From NCBI GenBank assembly GCA_020073615.1, contig JAIQEX010000056.1:1-40907 (forward strand): 40,907 nt of DNA, read 5' to 3'. Below are positions 259-21,112 of this stretch, one piece after another. The notes under the pieces are model-generated. The model made no database searches, was not told where the DNA came from, and saw only the letters and a program-made list of their open reading frames with translations. Each line of letters begins with the position of its first letter. The first letter of the stretch is position 1. A program made the translations under genes and the position numbers. The stretch is from Terriglobia bacterium (lineage in GTDB: Bacteria > Acidobacteriota > Terriglobia > Bryobacterales > Bryobacteraceae).

Positions 259-489
259 TCTTCCTGCACGGTGCTTGACCCTCTGGTCATTTTCCCCTAC
301 CCAGCCCCGGTACACGATCTGGTGCAAATGGTTCCAGTCCACTTGGTGAGTTCGCCGTCCATTGTTTCTACACCTTAGCCTGAGGCCGAGCCTGGCGCAC
401 CGGCTGGACGGGCGAGCGAGGTTGGAAGGCAGCGCGGCCCTTCAAAAACATTTGCGTTACCGAACAGGCTCCGCGGAGTATATATCGAC

Positions 490-2928
490 ATGCCCTCTGC
501 CTCCGTTTGGAACGATTGCCGGCATGCGATCCGCACTCTGGTCAGGACCCCCGCCTATGCGCTGGTGGCGGTGGCTACGCTGGCGCTCGGTATCGGCGCC
601 AACACCGCGATATTCAGCGTCGTAAACCAGGTTTTGCTGAACCCCGCCGGCGTCTCGGACCCGGGCCGCGTGGTGGCGCTGCGTGTCAAGTACGAGAAGC
701 TGGCGCTGCTCAACATCGGGGTCTCCATCCCCGATTTCGCCGACGTGCGGAACAGCACGCAACTCTTCGATGCAGCAGCGCTCATTAGTCAGGGCGACTA
801 CAACTACACCGGCTCCACCGTTCCCGAGCGGTTGCGCGGCGCGAACGTGACGTGGCGCTGGTTCGACGTCTTCGGCGCCAGAGCGCGTCTGGGGCGTGTC
901 TTCACCGCCGAAGAAGACAAGCCGGATGCGAATCGCGTCGTGGTCTTGTCGTACGCCGCCTGGAAGCACCTTTATGGGGAGGACGCCGGCGTGTTGGGGC
1001 GCACCCTCGAGCTGAATCGGATTCCATACCGCATCGTGGGCGTCATGGGGCCGGAATTCCGCTGGCCGGTGGACATCGACCTGTGGGTGCCGTTAGGCCT
1101 GCGCGACAGTCAATATTCCGAGAACAACCGGTTCAACGAGAACTACAACGCCGTGGCGCGACTGAAGCCCGGCATCGTGTTCTCACGCGCCAACGCTTTC
1201 GTGCGGGTGCTGGCCGACCGCGTGAAGAACGGCGGCACCCGGGACGGCGGCTACGCCAAAGACTCCGAGTGGGGCATGTTCCTGCTGCCCTTTACGGACT
1301 TCATCGCGGGAGACACCAAGAAGCCCATGCTGGTGCTGTTGGGCGCGGTGGGCTTCGTGCTGCTGATCGCCTGCTCGAACATCGCCGGCCTGACGCTGGC
1401 GCGCGCTTCGGGGCGCAGCCGGGAAATCGCCGTGCGCGCCGCTCTGGGCGCGGGCCGTTGGGACCTGATCCGCCAGACCCTGGCGGAGAGCCTGGTGCTG
1501 GCCCTGGCAGGCGCGGCCGCCGGTTTGGGCGTGGCTTTGGGCGCCATCCGCGGCTTGCTGGCGTTGGCGCCAAAAGGCCTGCCGGTGGCGGTGGGTGTGC
1601 GCATGGATGGCGCCGTGCTGGCCTTCACCGCGCTGGCCGCCATCGGCGCCGGCATTCTGTTCGGCATCGCGCCCGCCTGGCACATTTCGCGTCTCAACCG
1701 CTACGATTTGTTGAAGGAAGGCGCGCGTTCCAACACCGCGGGTCTGGGCCGCCAGCATCTGCGCTCCAGCCTGGTGGCCGGTGAAGTGGCCCTGGCGCTG
1801 GTGCTGTTGGTGGGGGCGGGACTGTTTCTGCGCAGCCTTGCCGCCCTGCAGGAAGTCAATCCCGGATTCCAGCCCAACGGCGTGATTACCGCCGGCCTTT
1901 CCCTGCCACCGGCGCGGTACGCCGATGACGCCAGCCGCACGGCTTTCTATCGCGCGGTGGTGGACAACCTGGCAACTACCCCCGGGGTCAGCGAAGCGGC
2001 CGCCGGCATCCCGGTGCCCTTCAGCGGCAACGGCGGTTCGGCGTCATTCGAGATCGATGGGCGGCCCTCGCCTCCCGGCGATCCCGGCCCGCACGGCGAT
2101 CTGGGCGCCGTCGGTCCGGGCTACTTCGCGGTGCTCCGCATTCCCATCCGCCAGGGCCGTGTGTTTACTCCCTCGGATCGCTCCGGCACGCAGCAGGTCG
2201 CCGTGATCGACGAGACCCTGGCGCGGCAATACTGGCCCGATGAGAATCCCGTTGGAAAGCACATCCGCCGCGGTTCCGGGGCGCCGTGGGCCACGATTGT
2301 GGGCGTGGTAGGCCATGTCAAGAATGCCGATCTGGCAGGCGACGAAGTCAAGGGCAAGTATTACTTCCCGCTGGAACAGGTCACGCCGCCGTTCACTACC
2401 TTCCTGGCCCGCACGCCGGCCGACCCGGCGCGCCTGGCCGCCGGCCTGCGCGAAGCGGTCCGCAAGGTCGATCCCACGCAACCGGTGTCGCAGATCCGCG
2501 TGCTTTCCGAGATGGTCGAAAGCTCTCTGGCCCCCCGCCGTTTCGTGGTCACGGTGCTGTCGGTATTCGCCGGCATGGCGTTGCTGATGGCGGTGATCGG
2601 ACTGTATGGGGTGATCAGCTACGCGGTGACCGCGCGCACCCAGGAACTGGGCGTCCGCATGGCCCTGGGAGCGCAACCGGGCGAGATCCTGCGCCTGGTG
2701 ATTTCCCAGGGCCTCCGGCTGGCGGGAATGGGTGCGGCCCTGGGACTGGCGGTATCGCTGGGGTTCAGCCGCCTGCTGGCCAGCCAGTTGTTCCACGTCA
2801 GCGCCTTCGATCCCCTGACTTTCGCCGCCATGGCCGCGGTGCTGTTGGCCGCGGCGTTGCTGGCGAGCTACATCCCCGCGCGCCGCGCCACGCGTGTGGA
2901 TCCCATGGTGGCGCTGCGCTATGAGTGA
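490..2928 (+). CDS. ABC transporter permease, ADOP family (MacB/FtsX-like)
   Basis: This 812-aa protein has the layout of the acidobacterial duplicated orphan permeases: two MacB-type halves fused in one chain without an ATPase gene beside it. The N-terminal membrane segment (about 24-45, containing LGIGANTAIFS) is followed by a MacB periplasmic core domain. An FtsX-type membrane block follows at about 281-400, a second anchor at about 428-450 and a second periplasmic domain. The last FtsX block, at about 687-797, ends in the family signature RVDPMVALR.E. A related permease lies at 18626-21112. Substrate is unknown; members are thought to work in export or cell-envelope processes. The start ATG has GGAG (475-478) upstream. 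The gene stands alone between the tRNA and the AlaX-like gene. Confidence 0.93.
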   Translation: MPSASVWNDCRHAIRTLVRTPAYALVAVATLALGIGANTAIFSVVNQVLLNPAGVSDPGRVVALRVKYEKLALLNIGVSIPDFADVRNSTQLFDAAALISQGDYNYTGSTVPERLRGANVTWRWFDVFGARARLGRVFTAEEDKPDANRVVVLSYAAWKHLYGEDAGVLGRTLELNRIPYRIVGVMGPEFRWPVDIDLWVPLGLRDSQYSENNRFNENYNAVARLKPGIVFSRANAFVRVLADRVKNGGTRDGGYAKDSEWGMFLLPFTDFIAGDTKKPMLVLLGAVGFVLLIACSNIAGLTLARASGRSREIAVRAALGAGRWDLIRQTLAESLVLALAGAAAGLGVALGAIRGLLALAPKGLPVAVGVRMDGAVLAFTALAAIGAGILFGIAPAWHISRLNRYDLLKEGARSNTAGLGRQHLRSSLVAGEVALALVLLVGAGLFLRSLAALQEVNPGFQPNGVITAGLSLPPARYADDASRTAFYRAVVDNLATTPGVSEAAAGIPVPFSGNGGSASFEIDGRPSPPGDPGPHGDLGAVGPGYFAVLRIPIRQGRVFTPSDRSGTQQVAVIDETLARQYWPDENPVGKHIRRGSGAPWATIVGVVGHVKNADLAGDEVKGKYYFPLEQVTPPFTTFLARTPADPARLAAGLREAVRKVDPTQPVSQIRVLSEMVESSLAPRRFVVTVLSVFAGMALLMAVIGLYGVISYAVTARTQELGVRMALGAQPGEILRLVISQGLRLAGMGAALGLAVSLGFSRLLASQLFHVSAFDPLTFAAMAAVLLAAALLASYIPARRATRVDPMVALRYE

Positions 2929-2974
2929 TGCCGTGAAGTTCCGGTGATCGTTCTGCCACAATAGCAGTGTCGCT

Positions 2975-4147
2975 ATGACCGAACGCCTCTATTACACCGA
3001 CTCCTATTTGCGCGAATTTCACGCCTCCATCGTCGAACGCTCCGCCGACGGCCTCACCGTGTACCTCGATCGCACCGCCTTCTATCCCACTTCCGGCGGT
3101 CAGCCGTTCGATACCGGGGTCATCGGCGGCATCCCCGTTCGCGAAGTGATCGACCAGGGCGAGCGCGTCGCGCACCAGGTCGCCGCGCCGCTCGGGACCG
3201 GTCCGGCCGAGTGCGCCATCGATTGGCCCCGGCGCTTCGATCACATGCAGCAGCACACCGGCCAGCACCTTCTCTCCGCCGTCTTCGAAGAGCTGTTCTC
3301 CATGCACACGGTGAGCTTCCATCTGGGGGCCGCGACCTCCACCATCGATCTGGAGGGCGGCGCCTGCGAAGCGCCCGCGGCGAAGGAGGCCGAGCGGCGT
3401 GCCAATGAAATCGTCTGCGAGAACCGTCCCGTTACCGTGGCCTTCCAGCACGCCGCCGAGACCGAGGGGTTGCGCAAGCCGTCGGACCGCGAGGGTACGC
3501 TGCGCATCGTCTCCATCGACGGGCTCGACCGCAGCGCCTGCGGGGGGACCCACGTGCGCTCCACCGGCGAGATCGGAGCCGTGCTCATCCGCAAGCTGGA
3601 AAAGGTGCGGCAGGCCGTGCGCGTGGAATTTCTATGCGGCGCGCGCGCCACCGCGCGAGCGCGCGCCGATTACGAAGCGCTCGCCGCCGTGGCGCACCTG
3701 TTCTCCGCTTCGCTCGACGACGCCGCGCCCATGGTGGCGGCGCAACTGGAAGCTGCGCGCGCCGCCGACAAGGCGCGGCGCAAGCTGGAGCTCGATCTCG
3801 CCGCCTATCAAGGCAGGGAGCTCTACCAGACCACGCCGCCCGGCCCGGACGGCGTGCGGCGCGTCTCGCGCCGCGTCGAGCACGGCAGCCTCGAGGAGTT
3901 GCGCGCCATCGCGCAGAACTTCACGGCCCAACCGAAGGCCGTGTTCATCGCCGCGTTGGCCAGTCCGCCTTCGGTGCTGCTGGCCGCTTCCGGCGATGCG
4001 GGCATCGATGCCGGCCAGGCGCTCAAGGCCGCCCTCGCCGCGGCCGGCGGACGCGGGGGCGGCAACGCGCGCATCGCCCAGGGCAGCGTGGCCGGCCAGG
4101 CGCAGCTCGAGCGCGTCCTGGCCGCGGTGGCCGGGGAGCAACCGTGA
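2975..4147 (+). CDS. alanyl-tRNA editing protein, AlaX-like with DHHA1 domain
   Basis: This 390-aa protein resembles the stand-alone editing factors that hydrolyse mischarged Ser-tRNA(Ala) (and Gly-tRNA(Ala)). The zinc site is intact: HTGQH (His94, His98) and CGGTH (Cys189, His193), as in the AlaRS editing domain. The N-terminal part (about 1-80) matches the AlaRS/AlaX beta-barrel, with the YPTSGGQPFDTG motif. The C-terminal part (about 235-390) is a helical linker plus a DHHA1-like domain ending in a GGRGGG.....G segment, which fits the long AlaX class. No aminoacylation domain is present, so it is not AlaS. It lies 46 bp after the ADOP gene and converges with the thioredoxin-like gene, 15 bp from its stop. 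Confidence 0.92.
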   Translation: MTERLYYTDSYLREFHASIVERSADGLTVYLDRTAFYPTSGGQPFDTGVIGGIPVREVIDQGERVAHQVAAPLGTGPAECAIDWPRRFDHMQQHTGQHLLSAVFEELFSMHTVSFHLGAATSTIDLEGGACEAPAAKEAERRANEIVCENRPVTVAFQHAAETEGLRKPSDREGTLRIVSIDGLDRSACGGTHVRSTGEIGAVLIRKLEKVRQAVRVEFLCGARATARARADYEALAAVAHLFSASLDDAAPMVAAQLEAARAADKARRKLELDLAAYQGRELYQTTPPGPDGVRRVSRRVEHGSLEELRAIAQNFTAQPKAVFIAALASPPSVLLAASGDAGIDAGQALKAALAAAGGRGGGNARIAQGSVAGQAQLERVLAAVAGEQP

Positions 4148-4162
4148 TGGCCCCGCGCGCCC

Positions 4163-4750
4163 TCAGTCCTGCTTCTTCTTGGGGGCGCTCTTGCGGGTGG
4201 CGCTCTTCCCGGCCGGCGCGCTGGCGGGCTTCAGCAGCTCCTCGATCTGGTCGCGGAAGGTCTTCTCCATCTGCGCCTCGGTGAGCAGCGGAGAGTCGCC
4301 TTCGTATTGCGCGCGGATCATGCCCTGCCGGTCCACAAACGCCACCAGCGGCATGTGCGGGATCAGCGCCATGGGGTGTTCCATGAAGTCGAGCGCCGTC
4401 TTTTGATCGTTGAGCCCCACCGGGAACGTGGGATTGAAGGTCTTGAGGAAATTCGGCAGCGCCACCGCCGCCATGCCTTCAATGGCCGACGCCAGCACCT
4501 GGAAGCCGCGCGGGCCGAGCTCGTTCTGGTCCTTGATCAGATACCCGATGGCCCTCTGGCAGTGCGGGCAATAAGTGAGGATGAAGGCTACCGCCACCAC
4601 CTTGCCCCGATACTGGCTGAGCAGCGCCTGCTTGCCGCCCGGGAGGTTGATGGCCAGTTGCGGCGACGGGCGGGGCAACTCCGCCCCCGGTGCCTGCGCC
4701 ATCAGCACAAACCACAAAGCCATGGCCTTGAAAGACGAGCGCCCTGACAT
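4163..4750 (-). CDS. thioredoxin-fold (TlpA/redoxin-like) protein with CPHC motif
   Basis: This 195-aa protein has an N-terminal hydrophobic stretch (about 8-23, likely signal or anchor), then a redoxin-type domain. The active-site motif CPHC (Cys61, Cys64) sits in the expected place after the first beta-strand (VVAVAFILTY). The segment HMPLVAFVDRQGMI near residue 138 is the usual cis-Pro strand followed by the hairpin. The tail is Lys/Ala/Pro-rich. CPHC is typical of DsbA-like or oxidative centres, but the fold is more like TlpA/AhpC-TSA. I chose the ATG at 4750, 5 bp after the stop of the metallopeptidase gene; longer in-frame starts would overlap that gene. The spacing suggests translational coupling and a joint envelope role. 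Confidence 0.85.
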   Translation of the reverse strand: MSGRSSFKAMALWFVLMAQAPGAELPRPSPQLAINLPGGKQALLSQYRGKVVAVAFILTYCPHCQRAIGYLIKDQNELGPRGFQVLASAIEGMAAVALPNFLKTFNPTFPVGLNDQKTALDFMEHPMALIPHMPLVAFVDRQGMIRAQYEGDSPLLTEAQMEKTFRDQIEELLKPASAPAGKSATRKSAPKKKQD

Positions 4751-4755
4751 AAGCT

Positions 4756-6000
4756 TCAGTGTATCGCAGGGTCCAGCCCTTCCATGCTGGTGACCGTCGC
4801 CCCATCGCGCCGCAGCAGGAACCGTCCGTCGTCGCCCGTCCCGCTGACCGAGTCGGCGCTTTCGGAAGCCACCGCCAGGTTGCGCCACTTCTTGCCCAGC
4901 GCCTCACGATAGACGGCGAAGTAGGCGCGCGCGCTCTCCTCGCTGTCCCATTCCGCGGCGTACAGCAGCACCACGCGGCGCGCTTTCTTATTCTCGCGCA
5001 GCTCGAATATCGACCCTCGCCAGTGCGGCGCGATCTCCGCCGCGCGCTCCTTGCCGGCGTACTGTTCGATCAGAATGCCGTGTTCCAGTTCCCCCAGCGA
5101 GCCGCCCACCAGGCCTTTGTAGCCGCGCGGCAAATGCGGGTCGGGGAGCGCGGGCCGGGTGGGCTTGAGCCCGGCGAAATACTTCTCGGGGTGAACGATT
5201 TGCTGCGTGGAAACCGGCGCGCGCCGGAAGACTTCGCCAAAGCCTTCTTCTCCGTCGCGCTGAAACACGGCGTTCTGGAACAGCATGCCCTTCGTATAGG
5301 GAAACACCAGCGTGCGGCGCAGGTAGAGCGGAGCGTTCTCGTAGATGGGATACTGCCCGGCCCCGCTGTCGCTCAGGTTACTCATGGCGGCCACCAGGGC
5401 GGGCGAATCCTTCAGGGACTGGCCGGATTTGCGGGCCAGGTATTCGGACATCAGCCACGTGGCCTGGCCTTCCATCACGGCCAGCCGCGCGGTGGCGCCG
5501 TCGTCGCTCTTGCGCCCCTGGCGGATGAACCGCGCCAGATTGAAATTCTGGTCGGCCAGGGCGTGCGAAAGCTCGTGCGCGAGCACCGGCTCCTGGGTAT
5601 CGGAGGGCGTGGATTCGGTGATGAACAGCTTCTTCTTGTTGTAATCGTAGAAGGCCGCCGCCTGCTCGGTGAGCAGTTCCACGGTGCTCTTGGCAAGGTC
5701 GAAATCGCGCGGCACCAACCCGAATTTCTTGAGCGTCAGCTCTTCGGCGCGGATCTCCTCCGGGCTGGCGACGTCTTTCACGCGCTTGTTCAGGAACTGG
5801 TTGATCTTCTCCTTGCTGATGAAATCGCAGGGAACGCGGCGCCGCAGTTTCATGCCGGAGATGCGCGTCAGATCCTGGGCGATGGCGTTGGCCTGCCCGC
5901 ACAGGGCCTGCGCGCGCGGACCGGATTGCCCCGCGCCCGGCGCCGCCCACACCAGCAACGCCGCCACGAGCGCGGCAAAGCGGAGCCTCAACCGCGACAC
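4756..6000 (-). CDS. secreted zinc metallopeptidase-like protein (HELSH motif)
   Basis: This protein is 414 aa from the GTG at 6000. The motif HELSH (about residues 142-146) fits HExxH, and an EGQATWLMSEY helix about 30 residues later offers a Glu as third zinc ligand, as in gluzincin-like peptidases. A signal peptide (RLRLRFAALVAALLVWAAPGAGQ region) starts right after the GTG, which is why I prefer it. An upstream ATG at 6180 keeps the frame open, but it adds a Pro/Gly/Ala-rich, repeat-like segment in front of the signal peptide. The exact family is not recognised and the substrate is unknown. It is the first gene of a two-gene unit with the CPHC protein. Confidence 0.82.
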   Translation of the reverse strand: MSRLRLRFAALVAALLVWAAPGAGQSGPRAQALCGQANAIAQDLTRISGMKLRRRVPCDFISKEKINQFLNKRVKDVASPEEIRAEELTLKKFGLVPRDFDLAKSTVELLTEQAAAFYDYNKKKLFITESTPSDTQEPVLAHELSHALADQNFNLARFIRQGRKSDDGATARLAVMEGQATWLMSEYLARKSGQSLKDSPALVAAMSNLSDSGAGQYPIYENAPLYLRRTLVFPYTKGMLFQNAVFQRDGEEGFGEVFRRAPVSTQQIVHPEKYFAGLKPTRPALPDPHLPRGYKGLVGGSLGELEHGILIEQYAGKERAAEIAPHWRGSIFELRENKKARRVVLLYAAEWDSEESARAYFAVYREALGKKWRNLAVASESADSVSGTGDDGRFLLRRDGATVTSMEGLDPAIH

Positions 6001-6230
6001 CCCGTAAGAAAATCCGTCGACGGGTCCGGCAGGCGGCACTGCCTGCCCCTCCGCTCGAAGCCCAGGATCCGTTGTGGTGGCGCAGGCGGTGCCGCCAGCG
6101 GGAGCAGTGGGCGTGGGCGGTATCCGCTCCCGTACGGCCGCGGCTCCGATCTTTGGCACGCTGCTCAACTCTATCAGCATAATGCGCGCTACAATGAGGG
6201 ATCAATTCACACGGTTAGAGGAGAGTCCTA
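6001..6230. repeat. intergenic stretch with palindromic, repeat-like sequence
   Basis: This 230-bp interval upstream of the metallopeptidase holds an inverted repeat, GCAGGC (6029-6034) and GCCTGC (6041-6046). It also holds the GC-rich string CGCTCCCGTACGGCCGCGG at about 6125-6143, which looks like a dispersed intergenic element of this group; I have only memory for that, not a search. The frame of the metallopeptidase stays open through it, but the encoded residues look non-protein-like. The far end carries the ribosome binding site of the small gene at 6231. Confidence 0.3.
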
Positions 6231-6362
6231 TTGGCGGAAGATAAAGTGTACAAGGCCGAGTACCTGGGAAGCGGCACCTTCGTGATCAGCAAGCCCAAAC
6301 GCAAGAAAATGAAGGTGCGCCAGTCGCAGTTGAAGAACCCGCAGCGCGGCTCGCGCAAGTAG
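6231..6362 (+). CDS. small basic protein, 43 aa, TTG start
   Basis: The sequence AGAGGAGAG (6217-6225) lies 5 nt before a TTG start that opens a 43-codon frame ending in TAG. The product is half beta-like (KVYKAEYLGSGTFVIS) and then strongly basic (KPKRKKMKVRQ, ending RGSRK). Such a tail would suit binding to nucleic acid or the ribosome, but I recognise no family. Support for being a gene comes from the very good ribosome binding site, the periodic charged composition and the clean intergenic position. It is convergent with the small membrane ORF at 6383-6505, with only 20 bp between the stops. Confidence 0.55.
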   Translation: MAEDKVYKAEYLGSGTFVISKPKRKKMKVRQSQLKNPQRGSRK

Positions 6363-7488: not shown

Positions 7489-8039
7489 GGTTAAAAGGGT
7501 ACGGATTATCTTTTTTGCCGGGACGGCGGACGGCGGGAGGCGATTGGTAAGCGAAGAGGGAGTCCGGAATGGAAGGGAACGCTCACAAGGAGCGGAAGGG
7601 CATTGGGGAAGCTGTTGAGGACTCAGAGGTTAGAATGATGGGACCGGACTCTCTCTTTGCCCCCAGCATAGCCCGCCGACAGGAGGGACTCTTTTTTTCG
7701 ACCGGCCAAGCTGCTGAAAAGACACCGCAGAAATCGTGAGATCCGTTGTCACCGGTGTCCGCCGGAATCGGTTCTCGGCCACAAGCCCGGCGACGATTTC
7801 TACCTGGCCAATTACGACGAGTCGCGAGCCTACTTCCACCGCCTGGCCGCCGCCTCCGACCGCATCCGCGTCATCCCGGTCGGCAAGACCACGCGCGGGC
7901 TGGATTGGGAGATAATGACACACGAACTGTCCGCACAGCGGCGAGCGGCGTCGCCCGCATTCGAATCACGTGCGAGTCGGCGGGCATCACGACTCGGGCG
8001 CTCAATGTCGCTACTGCGCCGCTTCGATAAGCTAAGGCG
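7489..8039. other. gene-free interval containing a gene fragment
   Basis: No intact gene is seen in these 551 bp. The first part has loosely related inverted stretches: GGGAGTCCGG near 7558 and CCGGACTCTC near 7645. The middle holds the M14 peptidase fragment listed separately (7760-7913). The rest (7914-8039) shows nothing recognisable. Confidence 0.6.
7760..7913 (+). pseudogene. truncated copy of the M14 peptidase gene N-terminal region
   Basis: These 154 bp match 9352-9505, inside the M14 peptidase gene, without gaps and with 7 mismatches by my count. The matching part encodes residues of about 23-74 of that protein (from ESVLGH to RGLDWEI). Six of the seven differences are synonymous; the seventh changes Ser to Pro (VISVG to VIPVG). 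There is no start codon, signal peptide or zinc motif, and the match ends abruptly on both sides. It is therefore a fragment of a former paralogue rather than a gene. It is in the same orientation as the full gene and separated from it by the membrane-repeat protein gene. Confidence 0.85.
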
Positions 8040-8951
8040 TCACTTACCGTAGTGAACCGTCTTCGGCCTACCCAGAAGGTCTGTCTCCTCGCGGCTCTCG
8101 CCGATCACGTTCCCTTCTGCGTCGGTGTGGACCGTCTTGGGACCGCCCAACCAGTCCGTATCCGGCTTACTCTCGCCATTCTTGTTGCCCGCTGCGTCGG
8201 TGTGGACCGTCTTAGGATTGCCCAACCAATCGCGGTCCGGCTTGCTTTCGCCAGTCTTGTTGCCTTGAGCGTCCGTATGCACCATCTTCGGCCGCCCCAG
8301 CCAATCTGTATCCGGCTTGCTCTCGCCCACCTTTTCGCCGGTGTTGTCGAAATGCTCCTGCTTTGGCCGGCCCAGCCAGTCGCTGGAATAACGCGTGACC
8401 CGGACCACGCGACCGGAAGACCCGGAATTTCCCGACAGCGATAAAGCCCACCCAATAATCGCAATGGTCAACATCAATACAACTATGGCGACGATGATGT
8501 AAACCGCCATCACGAGCAGGGTCACGGCGATGCCGGAGACGAAAATGAACGCTGTGACGCGCACGCCGGCCCGTAGATGAGCGTCCCGTATGGGCGCGGT
8601 CCAATGCCAGATCGCGAGGCTGGCGCCGAAAAAGGGCCGTTGGAAAAACCGCGCGAACTTCCCCTGGCGCGACGCCGCCCTGGCGGAGCCCGCCTTCAGC
8701 CAATTCTCGACGGAATCGACCGCGCCGGATACCTCCGATAGACGCAGGGCCGTTACAAACGCGCCCGCGATCAACGGGGCCAAAACGAGCAGTGCAGACC
8801 CGTTGTACTGATTTTGATATGCGAACCAGAAGAGCAGAACAATTGCGAGACCTGCCGCTCCTCGGAGAATCCACTCCTGGCGTTGTGCATCCGACGGCTG
8901 TCTGGCCGTCGAGGGTTGGGTGGGTTCTGTGGAAGATCCTATCGGCGACAT
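8040..8951 (-). CDS. membrane protein with C-terminal 25-residue DWLG-PK repeats
   Basis: This protein is 303 aa. After a Pro/Ser/Thr/Gln-rich start there are hydrophobic segments at about 28-45 and 51-69, a soluble stretch, and a long hydrophobic region at about 130-173. Residues 191-290 are four tandem 25-residue repeats, and a 13-residue partial copy ends the protein. Each unit reads roughly D-W-L-G-x-P-K-x-x-H-x-D-x-x-G-x-x-x-G-E-S-K-P-D, which suggests short beta-hairpins as in MORN- or YD-like repeats, although I cannot assign a family. I chose ATG 8951 because AAGGAGGT stands 3 nt before it; the longer open frame has no such site. It is divergent from the M14 peptidase. Function unknown. 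Confidence 0.85.
   Translation of the reverse strand: MSPIGSSTEPTQPSTARQPSDAQRQEWILRGAAGLAIVLLFWFAYQNQYNGSALLVLAPLIAGAFVTALRLSEVSGAVDSVENWLKAGSARAASRQGKFARFFQRPFFGASLAIWHWTAPIRDAHLRAGVRVTAFIFVSGIAVTLLVMAVYIIVAIVVLMLTIAIIGWALSLSGNSGSSGRVVRVTRYSSDWLGRPKQEHFDNTGEKVGESKPDTDWLGRPKMVHTDAQGNKTGESKPDRDWLGNPKTVHTDAAGNKNGESKPDTDWLGGPKTVHTDAEGNVIGESREETDLLGRPKTVHYGK
8043..8381 (-). repeat. 4.5 tandem copies of a 75-bp coding repeat
   Basis: Within the membrane protein, codons 191-303 repeat with an exact 75-bp period (units begin at residues 191, 216, 241, 266 and 291). The inner units differ at only a few residues, while the first and last are more diverged, as expected for growth by unequal exchange in the middle of the array. 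Confidence 0.9.
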
Positions 8952-8954
8952 GGC

Positions 8955-8962
8955 ACCTCCTT
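8955..8962 (-). promoter_or_regulatory. strong ribosome binding site fixing the start at 8951
   Basis: On the minus strand this reads AAGGAGGT, a full Shine-Dalgarno match, 3 nt before the ATG at 8951. It decides the start of the repeat protein against the 27-codon longer open frame. Confidence 0.8.
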
Positions 8963-9076: not shown

Positions 9077-9284
9077 AACTGTTGCGGTCGCACCTCATCC
9101 TGCGATCGGAGCCGCAGCGCCGACGTCAGTACGGGCGCAATCGATTGCCGTTCGGCACAATTGCACGCTTGTAATGGCACACGTCGATTTCGTTGCCCGG
9201 ACCCGGAGTGGCGATCTTCCATTCAACGCCAGGTTCAGGCCCCACCGCTCGGAGCCCCTCCCGCCGCGCTGTACAATCTGAGGG

Positions 9285-12212
9285 ATGCCGGCAAAGCTCG
9301 CGGTCCCTTGTTTTCTCCTGGTTTGCGTTTCTCTCGCGGCGCAGGTTCCCACGCCGGAATCGGTTCTCGGCCACAAGCCCGGCGACGATTTCTACCTGGC
9401 CAATTACGACGAGTCGCGCGCCTACTTTCATCGCCTGGCCGCCGCCTCGGACCGCATCCGCGTCATCTCGGTCGGTAAGACCACGCGCGGGCTAGATTGG
9501 GAGATCGCGCTGATCTCTTCGCCGCGGAATCTCGCACAGTTGGACCAGTACAAGTCCATTTCGCAGAAACTGGCCCAGGCGCGCGGGCTCACCGACGAAT
9601 CCGCCCGGGCGCTGGCCCGCCAGGGCAAGGCCATCGTGCACATCGATGGCGGCATGCACTCGACCGAAGTGGCCGGCGCGCAGCAGTCCATTCTGCTGGC
9701 CTACAAGCTGGTGGCTACCGAAGGCGATCCCGAAATCGACGCCATCCTGGACAACGTGATCGTGATGCTCTGGCCCACGCTCAACCCGGACGGCCAGAAC
9801 GAGGTGGTGGCATGGTATCGCAAGAACCTGGGCACGCCGTACGAGGTGAGCCCCCTGCCGGACCTCTACCAGGAATATGTCGGCCACGACAACAACCGCG
9901 ACGGATACATGAACAACATGCTGGAGTCGCGGGACGTGACACGCGCCGAGCTCGACTGGGCGCCCGTCATTTTCTACTGCCACCACCAGACGGCGCCCTT
10001 TCCCGCGCGTATCTTCATCCCCCCGTTCACCGAGCCGATCTCCTCCAACATTCACCCGCTGATGCTGCGCTGGCTGAACGTGCTGGGCATGAATATGGGC
10101 GCGTATCTGGACGAACGCCAGATGCCCGGCGCCGTCCACCGGGTGGGCTTCGACAACTGGTATGCCGGGTTCCTCGACTTCACGCACATATTTCGCAACA
10201 GCATCGCCTTCTTCACGGAGACGGCGCTGTACCGCTACGCCACGCCCCATTTCTACACCGTCGAAGATTTTCCCAGGGACCGGCAGCCCCTGCGGACGGA
10301 GGTGTTTTACAGCAGCCCGTGGAAGGGCGGCTGGTGGCGTCTGGGCGATGCCGTGCGCTATATGCTGGGCGCATCGATGTCGGTGCTGGACACGGCCGCG
10401 AAGTATCGCGAGACGCTGCTCTACAACCGCTACCAGGCGGGGCGCGACAACATCGCGCGCTTCCGCAGCGAGCCGCCGTTCGCGTACGTCATTCCGCAGG
10501 AGCAGCGGGACCTTCCCACGGCGGCCACGCTGGTGGAGAAACTGCTGATCGACGGCATCGAAGTGCACCAGGCCGCACAGCCGTTTGCGGCCAACGGGCG
10601 CGAATATAAAGGCGCCTGGGTGATTCTCATGGACCAGCCTTTCGCCCCGCTGGTGAAAGAACTCTTCGAAGCGCAGCGCTACCCGGACCTGCGGGATGGA
10701 CCCAACGGGCCGCCCATCCGGCCGTACGATGTGGCCGGATGGACCCTGCCCATGCAGATGGGCGTCGAGACGGCCGCCGTGCTGAAACCGGTGAGTGCGG
10801 AGCAGCGCGCCGGCTTGCGCGCGATCCACCAGGTGACGCCGCCCGAGGGCGGCGTGCAGGGAACCGGCGCGGCTTACTGGTTCAGCCATCAGCCCAATGC
10901 CGTTTTCAAGGCGCTGCATGCCGTGCTCGCGGGCGGCGGCAAGGTGAGCTTCGGCAAGGTGGACAAGGAAGCTGGCGCGGTGGTCGTCTCCGGCATGGAT
11001 CGGGAGCGCGTGGCCGCCATTGCGCATCAATTCTCGCTCCAGGCCGCGGCGGCCGCCAAAGCGCCCGACGACGCGGTCTCCACCGGCAAGGCCCGAGTGG
11101 GCCTGTATCGCTCGTGGGCGGCCTCCATCGACGAAGGATGGACCCGCTGGATCCTGGAGGAGTACGGCTTCGCTCCGGTCACGCTGCGCAACGGCGACAT
11201 TCAGGCCGGACACCTGCGCGACCGCTTCGACGCCATCGTCATTCCCGACGCCTCTCCGCGCGGCATCCTGGACGGATTTGCGCCGGGTTCGATTCCCGGC
11301 GAGTACGCCGGCGGCCTGGCCGGGACCGGGGTCGACGCCCTGCGCGCGTTCGTCAACGGAGGCGGCACGCTGATCGCGTTGAACAACGCTTCGATCATGG
11401 CCATCGACGAGTTGCACCTGCCGGTGGCCAATATTCTCACCGGCGTGCCCAACGACCAGTTCTACTGCTCGGGTTCGCTGCTGCGCGTGGAACTGCGCGA
11501 GGCGCCGCATCCGGCGCTGTGGGGCATGCCGCGCGAGCCGGTGGTGATGTTCGAGCGCGGGCCCGTCTTCGAGCAGAAGAGCGGTTTTCGCGGCACCGTG
11601 CTGGCGTCGTATTCCAAGGACCGGAATCCGCTGGAGAGCGGATACCTGCTCCACCCCGAGCGCATCCAGGGGAAAGCGGCGGCGCTCGAAGTTTTCCTGG
11701 GCGAGGGACGCGTCTATCTGTTCGGTTTCAAGCCGCAGTGGCGCGGGCAGGCGCACGGCACCTACAAGCTGATCTTCAACGCCATCTACGATTCACCGGC
11801 GGTAGCCAAGCCAACCTCGTTTCAAAAGCCGGCGGAGGCGGCCGCGCCGTCGCTCGAAAGCTGGAACGCCGCGGTGAACAAGGTGCACGCCGAACTGCCC
11901 GCGCTGCTCCGCCAGAACCAGGCGTTCTTCGCCGCGCGCGGGGCCAAAGCCGTGGAAGAGCGCGGCAAGCTCTCTGCCGCGGTGGATCAGTTTGAGAAGG
12001 ACCGCGTGGCGGAATTGGAAGATGCCGCCTCCGCGCTGGACGAAGCCGCCAAACGCAAGACCGCCGACTATATTCGCCAGTTGCGGCGTATGGCGGCCGA
12101 CCTGAAGAGCAAGGAATTCGAGAGCTCCGTGGATACCGGTGTGCTGACGGAGCGATACCGCCTGGCGGCGCTCGAGCAGGAGATCGCCGCCCCCGCCGCC
12201 AAGCCGAAATAA
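9285..12212 (+). CDS. secreted M14-family zinc carboxypeptidase-like protein
   Basis: This 975-aa protein has a signal peptide (about 1-20, ending SLAAQ), so it is exported. The M14 catalytic part lies at about 30-350: the zinc motif HSTE (His125, Glu128) follows the strand IVHIDGGM. TLNPDG and the NNRDGYMNN segment are also typical, and FYCHHQ near residue 230 offers the third zinc His. The central part (about 600-830) resembles a glutamine-amidotransferase-like or other Rossmann-type accessory domain, with a VGLYRSWAASIDEGWTRW segment common in large M14 proteins of this phylum. The C-terminus (about 850-970) is helical and charged. The ATG follows GAGGG. The amidohydrolase starts 4 bp after its stop, so the two are co-transcribed and probably act together on peptides. 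Confidence 0.9.
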   Translation: MPAKLAVPCFLLVCVSLAAQVPTPESVLGHKPGDDFYLANYDESRAYFHRLAAASDRIRVISVGKTTRGLDWEIALISSPRNLAQLDQYKSISQKLAQARGLTDESARALARQGKAIVHIDGGMHSTEVAGAQQSILLAYKLVATEGDPEIDAILDNVIVMLWPTLNPDGQNEVVAWYRKNLGTPYEVSPLPDLYQEYVGHDNNRDGYMNNMLESRDVTRAELDWAPVIFYCHHQTAPFPARIFIPPFTEPISSNIHPLMLRWLNVLGMNMGAYLDERQMPGAVHRVGFDNWYAGFLDFTHIFRNSIAFFTETALYRYATPHFYTVEDFPRDRQPLRTEVFYSSPWKGGWWRLGDAVRYMLGASMSVLDTAAKYRETLLYNRYQAGRDNIARFRSEPPFAYVIPQEQRDLPTAATLVEKLLIDGIEVHQAAQPFAANGREYKGAWVILMDQPFAPLVKELFEAQRYPDLRDGPNGPPIRPYDVAGWTLPMQMGVETAAVLKPVSAEQRAGLRAIHQVTPPEGGVQGTGAAYWFSHQPNAVFKALHAVLAGGGKVSFGKVDKEAGAVVVSGMDRERVAAIAHQFSLQAAAAAKAPDDAVSTGKARVGLYRSWAASIDEGWTRWILEEYGFAPVTLRNGDIQAGHLRDRFDAIVIPDASPRGILDGFAPGSIPGEYAGGLAGTGVDALRAFVNGGGTLIALNNASIMAIDELHLPVANILTGVPNDQFYCSGSLLRVELREAPHPALWGMPREPVVMFERGPVFEQKSGFRGTVLASYSKDRNPLESGYLLHPERIQGKAAALEVFLGEGRVYLFGFKPQWRGQAHGTYKLIFNAIYDSPAVAKPTSFQKPAEAAAPSLESWNAAVNKVHAELPALLRQNQAFFAARGAKAVEERGKLSAAVDQFEKDRVAELEDAASALDEAAKRKTADYIRQLRRMAADLKSKEFESSVDTGVLTERYRLAALEQEIAAPAAKPK

Positions 12213-18625: not shown

Positions 18626-21112
18626 TTACTCCTCGCGGAGCGCGGCGGTCGGGTCCAGGCGGGCGGCGCGGCGGGCGGGCAGCCAGCAGGCTACGGCGGC
18701 CACCAGGAAAAAGAGCGCCGCCATGGTGGCGAAGGTAGCCGGGTCGGCCGGTTTCACCCCCACCAGCATGGTGATCATGGCCCGCGTGAGGCCCAGGGCC
18801 GCGATCACACCCAGCACGATACCGGCCGCGCTGAGCTGCAGGCCCTGGCCGACCACCAGGCGAAAAATGCTGATGGGCGCCGCGCCGAGGGCCACGCGCA
18901 CGCCGATTTCCGCCGTCCGCTGCCGTACCGCGCTGGCCAGCACGCCGTAGAGCCCGACGGTGGCCAGCAGGGCCGCGATGGCCGCGAAGATACCGATCAG
19001 GATCAGGGCAAAGCGGGTCTGCGCCTGCGCGCGCGCGACGTACACGGTCATGGGCAGGACATCGGCCACCGCCAGACGCTTATCGAAGCGGGCGATTTCG
19101 GCGCGGATCGAGGGCGCCAGGCGCATGGGGTCGCCATCGGTGCGCACTTCCCAAAGGATGGCATTGCCGAACCGGCCGTAGCCATCGGTCACGTACATGG
19201 CCTCGTGGCCGTCCACGGCGAGCGAGTCGTGGCGCTGGTGGGCCACCACGCCGATCACCTCGAAGGTCTCCGCCTGCGGCGTCTGAATGCGCGCCAGCAG
19301 GCGTTTGCCCACGGCGGATTCGTGCGGGAAGGCGCGCGCCGCCAGGAGTTGGTCGATGATAATCAGCCGCGGCTCCGGGGCATTGTCGGCCTCGGTAAAG
19401 GTGCGGCCCGCCAGGAGGCGCGTGCCCAGGGTATCGAAATAGCCGGGGAGCACACGGAACACGTTGGCCTGCTGGAACTTCGCCGGGTCGGCCGCGGCCG
19501 CTTCGGTGCCCCACCGCGCCAGGGGGGTGGTCCCGTCCAGCGGGAGGGTAGAGGATGCGGACACGGACTTCACGCCCGGCAAGGCGCGCACGCGGCCGCG
19601 AAAGTCGTTCATGAAGGCCGCGCGCTGTTGCGGTCCGCGGGCGGTAGTTACGGGGAGCAGAAAAGTGAGCACGCCGCGGGCGTTGTAGCCGGGGTCGGTG
19701 CGGGTGAGGGCGATGAAGCTGCGCAGCATGAGGCCGCAGCCGATCAGCAGCACGAAGGAGAGCGCCACCTCGGTGACCACCACGGCATTGCGCAGCAAGC
19801 GTCCGCTGCCCAGGCCGGTGGTGCGCCCGCTGGCGCGCAGCACGTCCATGATGTCCGGCCGGGAGGCGCGCAGGGCGGGCAGCAGGCCGAAGGCAACGGC
19901 GGCGGCGGCGGCGGCCACGGCGGTGAAGGCCAGCACTGCGGGGTCGATGGCGACGGCGTCGAGGCGCGGCAGGTTGCGCGGGCCAAGCGCGACGAGGAGG
20001 TTGATGCCGAGGCGCGCCAGGCCGAGGCCCAACAGCGCGCCCGAGCCCGCCACCAGCAGGCTCTCGGCCAGCATCTGGCGCACCAGGTCCCAGCGGTTGC
20101 CGCCCAGGGCCGCGCGCACGGCCAGTTCACGGCCGCGGGCGGCGGCGCGGACCAGCAGCAGGTTGGCCACGTTGGCGCAGGCGATCAGCAGCAGGAAGGT
20201 GACGGCGCCCATCAGCGCCAGGATGGCGGGGCGCACTTCGGCCACCAGGTGCTGCCGCATGGGCTCCACGCGGAGATACATGCCGGCGGTTTGCTTGATG
20301 GCAAAGCGCTGCCGCAGGTCGGCGGCGATCCGGTCGGCCTCCGCCTGCGCGGCCTGCGTGGTAACGCCCGGCCGCAGGCGCCCGATGACGCGCAGGAAGA
20401 CGTCATTCCTTGGGCCGCCCGCGAAATCCACGCGCAGGGCCGCCCAAGTCTCGGCCTGCCGCTCCACTCCGGCCTTGGGCGGGAGCAGCAGTTCGAAGCC
20501 CGGTTCCAGAATGCCCACCACTTGCCCCTTGCCGCCGCCTCCGAAATCGATGGTGCGGCCCAGAATGTTGGGATCGCCGCCATAGCGCCGCTTCCAGAAT
20601 TCATGGCTGAGGATGGTCATGGCAGGAGGGGGCGGCGGACCGGGCGGAGCCGCTGCCCCCGGCGGAGGGGGCGCGACGGGCGGCGGCGGGGTGGCATCGG
20701 CATCCACGAAATCGCGTCCCAGTTCGATGCGCGCGCCCAGCATGCGGAAGAAGTTGGGGGTGACGGCGCCGGTGCGGATCTGCTCCGATTCGGCATTCTC
20801 GCCGGTGACCACCACGCGGCCGGTATTGACCGCGGCGAGTTCTTCGAACAGCGTCGCCTGGTGGCGCAAATCGTCGAAATCGGGCGCCGAGAAGGGAAAA
20901 TTGACCACGTTGCGGTGCCGCAGATCGCTCTCCACCAGAGCCAGCCGCCCGCCATCGCGGTAGGGCAACGGCTGGAGCAGGACGGCGTTGACCACGCTGA
21001 AGATGGCCGTGCTGGCGCCGATGCCGAGCGCGATGGTGACTATCGAGGTGAGGGCGAAGGCGGGACTGTTCCGCAACCCGCGCGTGGCGTGCAATAGATC
21101 TTTGGCAAGCAT
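18626..21112 (-). CDS. ABC transporter permease, ADOP family, with a proline-rich insert
   Basis: This 828-aa protein is a second orphan duplicated MacB/FtsX-type permease, similar in layout to the one at 490-2928. The first membrane segment lies at about 18-46 (IALGIGASTAIFS). The periplasmic core is followed by an FtsX block after residue 270 (LLLIACANVANLLLVRAAARGRELA), a second anchor near 435-455 and a C-terminal FtsX block with GLYGVLASAVRQRTAEIGVRV. It ends RLDPTAALREE. Unusual is a Pro/Ala/Gly stretch at residues 141-163 (bases 20624-20692) placed between two conserved parts of the periplasmic domain. No ATPase gene is near. It lies 66 bp after the pseudopilin gene on the same strand and converges with the NACHT gene. 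Confidence 0.93.
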   Translation of the reverse strand: MLAKDLLHATRGLRNSPAFALTSIVTIALGIGASTAIFSVVNAVLLQPLPYRDGGRLALVESDLRHRNVVNFPFSAPDFDDLRHQATLFEELAAVNTGRVVVTGENAESEQIRTGAVTPNFFRMLGARIELGRDFVDADATPPPPVAPPPPGAAAPPGPPPPPAMTILSHEFWKRRYGGDPNILGRTIDFGGGGKGQVVGILEPGFELLLPPKAGVERQAETWAALRVDFAGGPRNDVFLRVIGRLRPGVTTQAAQAEADRIAADLRQRFAIKQTAGMYLRVEPMRQHLVAEVRPAILALMGAVTFLLLIACANVANLLLVRAAARGRELAVRAALGGNRWDLVRQMLAESLLVAGSGALLGLGLARLGINLLVALGPRNLPRLDAVAIDPAVLAFTAVAAAAAAVAFGLLPALRASRPDIMDVLRASGRTTGLGSGRLLRNAVVVTEVALSFVLLIGCGLMLRSFIALTRTDPGYNARGVLTFLLPVTTARGPQQRAAFMNDFRGRVRALPGVKSVSASSTLPLDGTTPLARWGTEAAAADPAKFQQANVFRVLPGYFDTLGTRLLAGRTFTEADNAPEPRLIIIDQLLAARAFPHESAVGKRLLARIQTPQAETFEVIGVVAHQRHDSLAVDGHEAMYVTDGYGRFGNAILWEVRTDGDPMRLAPSIRAEIARFDKRLAVADVLPMTVYVARAQAQTRFALILIGIFAAIAALLATVGLYGVLASAVRQRTAEIGVRVALGAAPISIFRLVVGQGLQLSAAGIVLGVIAALGLTRAMITMLVGVKPADPATFATMAALFFLVAAVACWLPARRAARLDPTAALREE

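Follow-up and report, generated by a model that had tools for sequence, protein, structure and literature searches.

What kind of protein ends in one short sequence copied several times over: a variable array displayed outside the cell, or a folded domain of set size? The question is posed by a gene in the 40,907-nucleotide stretch of a Terriglobia bacterium contig that was analyzed here (the window), which encodes hydrophobic helices followed, at the C-terminus, by four full 25-aa units and a half unit. Our reading, held with somewhat better than even confidence, is of an inner-membrane protein whose C-terminal five-hairpin domain most likely closes into a five-fold pseudosymmetric barrel and serves as a cytosolic binding module. 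The gene and its parts are laid out as follows.

8040..8951, minus strand: gene for the 303-aa repeat protein, with its ATG at 8951 and its stop codon at 8040-8042
8430..8870, minus strand: membrane part, residues 28-174 (hydropathy; AlphaFold2 helices)
8043..8411, minus strand: five-hairpin domain, residues 181-303 (AlphaFold2; hairpin split)
8382..8408, minus strand: leading strand, residues 182-190, the first strand of hairpin 1 (AlphaFold2)
8307..8381, minus strand: unit 1, 25 aa (lag identity; split)
8232..8306, minus strand: unit 2, 25 aa (lag identity; split)
8157..8231, minus strand: unit 3, 25 aa (lag identity; split)
8082..8156, minus strand: unit 4, 25 aa (lag identity; split)
8043..8081, minus strand: half unit 5, 13 aa (lag identity; split)

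The gene has the marks of a translated one. An AGGAGG, read from the sequence, lies at 8956-8961, just upstream of the ATG, and when the units are compared with one another, the first two codon positions agree more than the third in 11 of 12 comparisons, with a tie in the twelfth. Against the relative in genome G049, with which the protein shares 67% identity, dN is 0.235 and dS 1.28, and the repeat part alone gives 0.227 and 1.32, in a comparison where dS is saturated for part of the other pairs. Because of this codon-position pattern and the dN/dS against G049, we take the gene to encode a real protein under purifying selection.

The repeats themselves are well defined. The original prediction placed them at 8043-8381 with an exact 75-bp, or 25-aa, period; the repeat part maps to 8043-8384 on the minus strand, and identity at lag 25 is 0.72 versus 0.01-0.07 at the other lags between 18 and 32, with 20,000 shuffles reaching at best 0.23 over lags 10-40. 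The predicted W-L-G-x-P-K core is borne out in the window units, the G-E-S-K-P-D unit end is recognizable as GES[KR], and the long hydrophobic region said to precede the repeats is evident in the hydropathy profile. A description of the units as near-perfect does not hold, since the four full ones share only 52-80% pairwise identity in protein (60-75% in DNA). The count of four and a half units is right as far as it goes and is incomplete: residues before unit 1 are also modeled as a strand by AlphaFold2, which completes five beta-hairpins and makes these the structural unit. Each hairpin of the window domain carries a [WFL][LFW]G turn and an H-[YTF]-D-x-x-G turn. Across 27 units from seven proteins (leaving out G417, G640, the stand-alone proteins described below and one G531 unit), the consensus is D-[WF]-[LW]-G-x-P-[KY]-x-[VE]-H-[YTF]-D-A-x-G-N-K-[VT]-G-E-S-[RK]. 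As anticipated, the protein resembles no family that can be named: no Pfam or NCBIfam model reaches its cut-off, the best PHROGs match has E 0.054, and a sequence search of the PDB gives no match at E <= 10.

Relatives of the gene are few. In counts that include the window's own genome, the window protein found matches in 2 of 101 genomes, a two-sequence profile (A1) in 5 of 399 genomes of the class and profile A2 in 5 of 237 of the family; G178 was matched by A1 in the membrane part only and again by A2, which also matched G531 in the repeats only. A two-unit profile (A4) pointed to 6 of 396 genomes of the phylum, from which the window's own, G563 and G640 were accepted and three rejected, and a search around G563 pointed to 3 of 97, with G563 and G938 accepted. 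By eye, the frames at L023, L024 and L025 (in G876, G254 and G759; E 5.2e-4 to 6.3e-3) are unrelated or stop-bearing, and the protein of G916, matched by the G563 repeats at E 2.1e-4, is a YD-repeat protein. A pattern search of genome contigs matched 61 stretches, four of them with a relative (G049, G237, G344 and G417). With so few genomes carrying a relative in the class, family and phylum searches, the gene is sporadic in the Acidobacteria phylum.

These relatives combine the domain with other parts in several ways. A four-helix membrane part precedes it in the window protein and in those of G049, G237, G344, G417 and G938, and G640 has the same layout preceded by two CxxC pairs, as judged by eye (Pfam gave no match at E 0.001). 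In G531 the domain comes without a membrane part and behind a CxxC...CxxC motif, where a zf_Tbcl match stays below its cut-off, and in G563 the domain comes first and is followed by one hydrophobic segment, as judged by eye. Over the domain in the G344, G417 and G531 proteins, all Pfam and NCBIfam models stayed below their cut-offs, as did all Pfam models in the proteins of G563, G938 and G640.

A second branch came to light in viral contigs. Searched with profile A3 and the G938 repeats, these contigs held no relative, and a DNA pattern for 25-aa units found none, a weak negative since the pattern excluded a Phe codon. Nor did phages and plasmids yield relatives by tblastn: the window protein and the G938 repeats gave nothing at E <= 1, hits from the L007 repeats and from L014 were confined to E 0.3-9 and are taken as chance, and the G563 repeats gave one phage place at E 1 and none in plasmids. 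A DNA pattern for H-Y-D-x-x-G-x-K-x-G with a following F-G picked out six viral contigs encoding short proteins of ~21-aa units, and a profile search of viral contigs gave eight loci (L044-L051) from 33 stretches. The encoded proteins, of 104-112 aa, consist of the domain only; that of L045 is 97% identical to that of L044, and those of L046 and L047 are the same. Four of them were scanned without any Pfam or NCBIfam model reaching its cut-off, the best PHROGs match having E 0.089.

Profile comparison ties the two branches together. The Acidobacteriota domain aligns in register with the stand-alone profile over 89 columns (probability 99.0, score 102.7), and the comparison with A8 gives 97.8 and 73.9. 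Among 100 column permutations that keep the period, the maxima were 60.5 and 30.8, with one above 50% probability; 100 full shuffles reached at most 0.9 and 15.6, and the reversed alignment 0.1 and 10.1. A search in the reverse direction, with the stand-alone profile as query, recovers the window protein (E 2.1e-5), G563 (1.7e-8) and G640 (1.9e-12). Judged by these profiles, the membrane-bound and stand-alone branches are kin. The stand-alone profile matched 6 of 347 genomes at E <= 0.01, three of them weakly; the weak matches, at E 0.0017-0.0084, are in G579, G786 and G736 and at a second place in G563. A tblastn search with a stand-alone protein returned nothing at E <= 0.01.

The surroundings of the stand-alone genes vary. 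In L049, L050 and L051 a DnaE polymerase gene stands immediately before the stand-alone one (304-3802, 2596-6333 and 4535-6318, respectively; in L051 a 257-aa frame separates two DnaE pieces). Further on lie thyX and nrdD in L049 (Pfam), nrdD in L050 (Pfam, which recognized no thyX there), and thyX (Pfam) with an nrdD-like gene (by eye) in L051. An integrase N-terminal fragment is found near the L044 gene, and in L046 a cytosine methylase gene, at 1242-2435, precedes the stand-alone gene. By eye, the L048 gene sits among sugar-transport genes, and this contig may be cellular DNA.

With both branches in hand, the size of the domain can be compared. All 15 domains that were split, nine from Acidobacteriota and six stand-alone (L045 and L047 left out), consist of five hairpins and lend no support to the earlier suggestion that copy number could vary between strains. 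The splits were made by eye and each read back from DNA, with the single odd units of L050 and G531 the weakest, and the searches did not select for five. Within a protein, full units are of uniform length in 11 of the 15 (25 aa in seven, 21 in two, and 24 and 26 in one protein each); the other four, all stand-alone, mix units of 20-27 aa. An array that looks variable thus keeps its hairpin number in distant relatives and one unit length in most proteins.

Structure prediction bears out the beta-structure that the original prediction expected. AlphaFold2, working from alignments of five sequences for both models, places ten strands between residues 182 and 302 of the full-length protein (mean pLDDT 77.9, pTM 0.40) and models the domain alone as all-strand, again with ten strands (mean pLDDT 92.4, pTM 0.78). 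We propose that these predicted strands close into a barrel with five-fold pseudosymmetry, chiefly because the number of hairpins is fixed. A closed barrel would require a set hairpin number, and any change in hairpin length would have to be common to all units; closure would thus explain both a count held at five and a unit length that is mostly uniform per protein. In such a barrel the [DG][WFL][LFW]G turns would make up a hydrophobic rim, with the D-x-x-G turns on the opposite one. In a VIA-align comparison with 995 chains, the better-ranked structures include barrels (Tubby, prenyltransferase, AbyU, nitrobindin, NanoLuc); the highest Z is 6.5 (RsfG), where the tool asks for 8 and notes that lower values may reflect only a common arrangement. 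Uncharacterized proteins of giant viruses in BFVD (Tupanvirus, Dasosvirus, Pithovirus, Terrestrivirus and Yasminevirus) also resemble the domain model: Foldseek gives them a probability of 1.00 and TM values, relative to query length, of 0.53-0.61, and one has E 4.5e-4, the sole row at or below 0.001; these proteins and the domain possibly share the barrel fold.

The hairpins could instead lie in one open layer, a beta-sheet or shell segment of the OspA or Rhs/YD type that never closes, a live reading that we nevertheless rate as unlikely. Foldseek against the PDB gives no row at E <= 0.001 for either model, and its first ranks are taken by TULP1, Rhs cores and OspA for the domain and by OspA and Rhs for the whole protein, in keeping with an open sheet; however, the OspA and Rhs rows come at a large rmsd of 10.8-20.4 A. 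The repeat stretch is rich in charged residues, a further point for this reading, and the unit resembles YD repeats in its T-D-x-x-G ... Y-D-x-x-G pattern, a likeness echoed by the match between the G563 repeats and the YD-repeat protein of G916. Compared as profiles, eight segments of one YD protein reach a probability of 33-53% and scores of 26.8-28.9, which fall under the best of 100 permuted controls (30.8) yet lie well over their median (9.4), so that there may be a distant kinship with YD repeats. The count itself also tells against an open sheet: open repeats need no set number, yet all 15 domains have five hairpins.

If the closed barrel is accepted, a broader and more tentative proposal can be built upon it, which we regard as possible but not likely. 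The domain may be an unnamed five-fold barrel common to bacteria and phages, a cytosolic ligand- or protein-binding module that occurs free in phages, immediately behind dnaE and beside replication and nucleotide genes, and in Acidobacteriota as a sensor or adaptor tethered to membranes or zinc fingers.

The locus adds evidence of another kind. The neighbors of the repeat gene in the window encode an M14 peptidase, an amidohydrolase and a hydrolase of the metallo-beta-lactamase fold, and part of the peptidase gene recurs on the far side of the repeat gene.

9285-12212, plus strand: M14 peptidase gene (Peptidase_M14 match)
7760..7913, plus strand: 154-nt M14 peptidase fragment, downstream of the repeat gene (95.5% match to its direct-repeat partner, 9352-9505)
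9352..9505, plus strand: matching stretch inside the M14 peptidase gene (direct-repeat partner of 7760-7913)

The 154-nt direct repeat brackets the repeat gene, and by eye six of its seven differences are synonymous. In G001, of the same genus, the peptidase region aligns from window position 9262 on, where synteny ends; within the 7.3 kb before that region, no other part of the window's first 14 kb aligns. In G344 a 543-nt direct repeat (91.8%; L016 12258-12800 and 15610-16152) brackets the gene and its neighbors, one copy reading, by eye, as the end of an rpoC-like frame and the other giving an RNA_pol_Rpb1_5 match below cut-off. The G049 gene lies beside an ISAZ013-type transposase and a cytosine methylase (L004 7070-8404). 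No bracketing repeat was seen in the stretches examined, some of them short, from G049, G237, G417, G531, G563, G640 and G938. In sum, some of the loci show signs of horizontal insertion, misassembly of metagenome bins being a further conceivable source of the bracketing repeats. Two other observations concern the surroundings: the window carries an inverted repeat of ~355 nt at 70% identity (1325-1677 and 19874-20226), and in G938 (L036 407-5089) caspase (C14), DUF4384 and zinc-ribbon/YARHG genes directly precede the repeat gene.

Insertion signs and sporadic distribution would also suit a role in a conflict or signaling system, with the protein as its membrane effector or sensor: the domain would sense a ligand, and the helices would act on the membrane. 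Such a role is compatible with the barrel, and some neighborhoods lend it color: the caspase, DUF4384 and zinc-ribbon/YARHG genes within a few kb in G938, a protein kinase near the G640 gene, a TPR protein near that of G563, and cytosine methylases, one close to the gene of G049 and one adjoining the stand-alone gene in L046. The hydrolase, peptidase and amidohydrolase of the window speak against it, however, and no neighbor is common to all loci; we consider this role improbable.

On which side of the membrane, then, does the domain lie? Hydropathy peaks near residues 28-46, 52-70 and 130-174, and AlphaFold2 places helices at 19-46, 51-69, 72-94, 98-117 and 124-174. The last hydrophobic stretch could cross the membrane twice, with the domain inside, or form one long helix; the model has residues 124-174 as a single helix, and with the N-terminus inside this would place the domain outside. 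A cytosolic domain is favored nonetheless, because the loop 72-131 between helices is basic (9 K/R versus 4 D/E) and because no export signal is visible in G531, in the stand-alone proteins or in G563, where the domain is N-terminal. The exposure first proposed for the domain is thus doubtful, the long modeled helix being the point in its favor. An exposed surface repeat, its membrane part exporting a C-terminal array of drifting copy number, would accord with the order of the parts, with that one long helix and with the sporadic distribution, yet it is the least probable of the readings weighed here, given an equal hairpin number in all 15 domains, no signal peptide visible by eye in the window protein, and relatives that have no membrane part.

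We return to the inner-membrane protein that ends in one compact ten-strand, five-hairpin domain. Its barrel would bind a partner at the inner membrane, perhaps as an adaptor or sensor, with the membrane helices, or zinc-finger-like parts in relatives, positioning the domain in the cell; closure, cytosolic position and binding role are all inferred from the evidence above. Should an experimental structure agree, the domain would offer a clean natural five-fold pseudosymmetric barrel that evolved by duplicating hairpins while their count stayed fixed. One and the same module occurs beside replication genes of phages and on membrane proteins of bacteria, and the stand-alone protein, small and easily made at 104-112 aa, provides a handle for finding its function.

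The domain can be set beside several known systems. DUF1543 (PF07566) is matched weakly by 14 unit residues (20.9 bits against a cut-off of 22.9, E 0.00032), which cover only model positions 25-38 of 52; G563 scores 16.7 bits and the repeats alone 21.9, so that membership was rejected for want of the gathering score over the domain. Rhs/YD repeats share short beta-hairpin units, a Y/H-D-x-x-G turn and the place of Rhs cores among the top Foldseek rows, but differ in their ~21-aa units set in long arrays (in the one example) and in weak profile probability; the Pfam RHS model (PF03527) was likewise rejected, at 10.3 bits for the repeats alone against a cut-off of 27.9. The G178 protein (NF041770, zinc-ribbon/CFI_box_CTERM; gene at L008 1330-2736) is alike in its membrane part (E 1.9e-8 and 2.2e-10), which about five hairpin-like units follow, by eye; it differs in that these are ~22 aa long and of other sequence, with a zinc ribbon before and a CFI box after (NF041770 E 9.3e-12). 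A limited literature search found nothing on CFI-box-CTERM or on zinc ribbons with repeats in Acidobacteria, and for hairpin repeats its sole match concerns phytoplasma effectors.

Among folds, Tubby, nitrobindin and the ABBA prenyltransferases, barrels of ten to twelve strands, give a barrel-like match over most of the domain. The Tubby rows are 1i7e (Z 6.4 with 101 residues aligned at 4.0 A) and 3c5n_B (Z 6.2), with a Foldseek E of 6.2e-3; the prenyltransferase 1zb6 (Z 6.2) covers 114 of the 126 residues at 3.6 A, and the nitrobindin rows have Z 4.8-5.2. All stay under 8 in VIA-align, and the Tubby, prenyltransferase and nitrobindin rows shown share just 4-9% sequence identity with the domain. 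The Tubby C-terminal domain is built around a central helix and ABBA prenyltransferases have outer helices, elements that find no counterpart in the all-strand domain model. We assign the domain to none of DUF1543, Rhs/YD or the other families compared; by the proteins scanned, where no model reached its cut-off, and the limited literature search, it is an undescribed domain family. Its closest match is within that family: the stand-alone proteins (L044-L051) differ from the window domain in having ~21-aa units instead of 25 and no membrane part, yet they share with it the same turn and strand motif, five hairpins and an alignment that runs from end to end.
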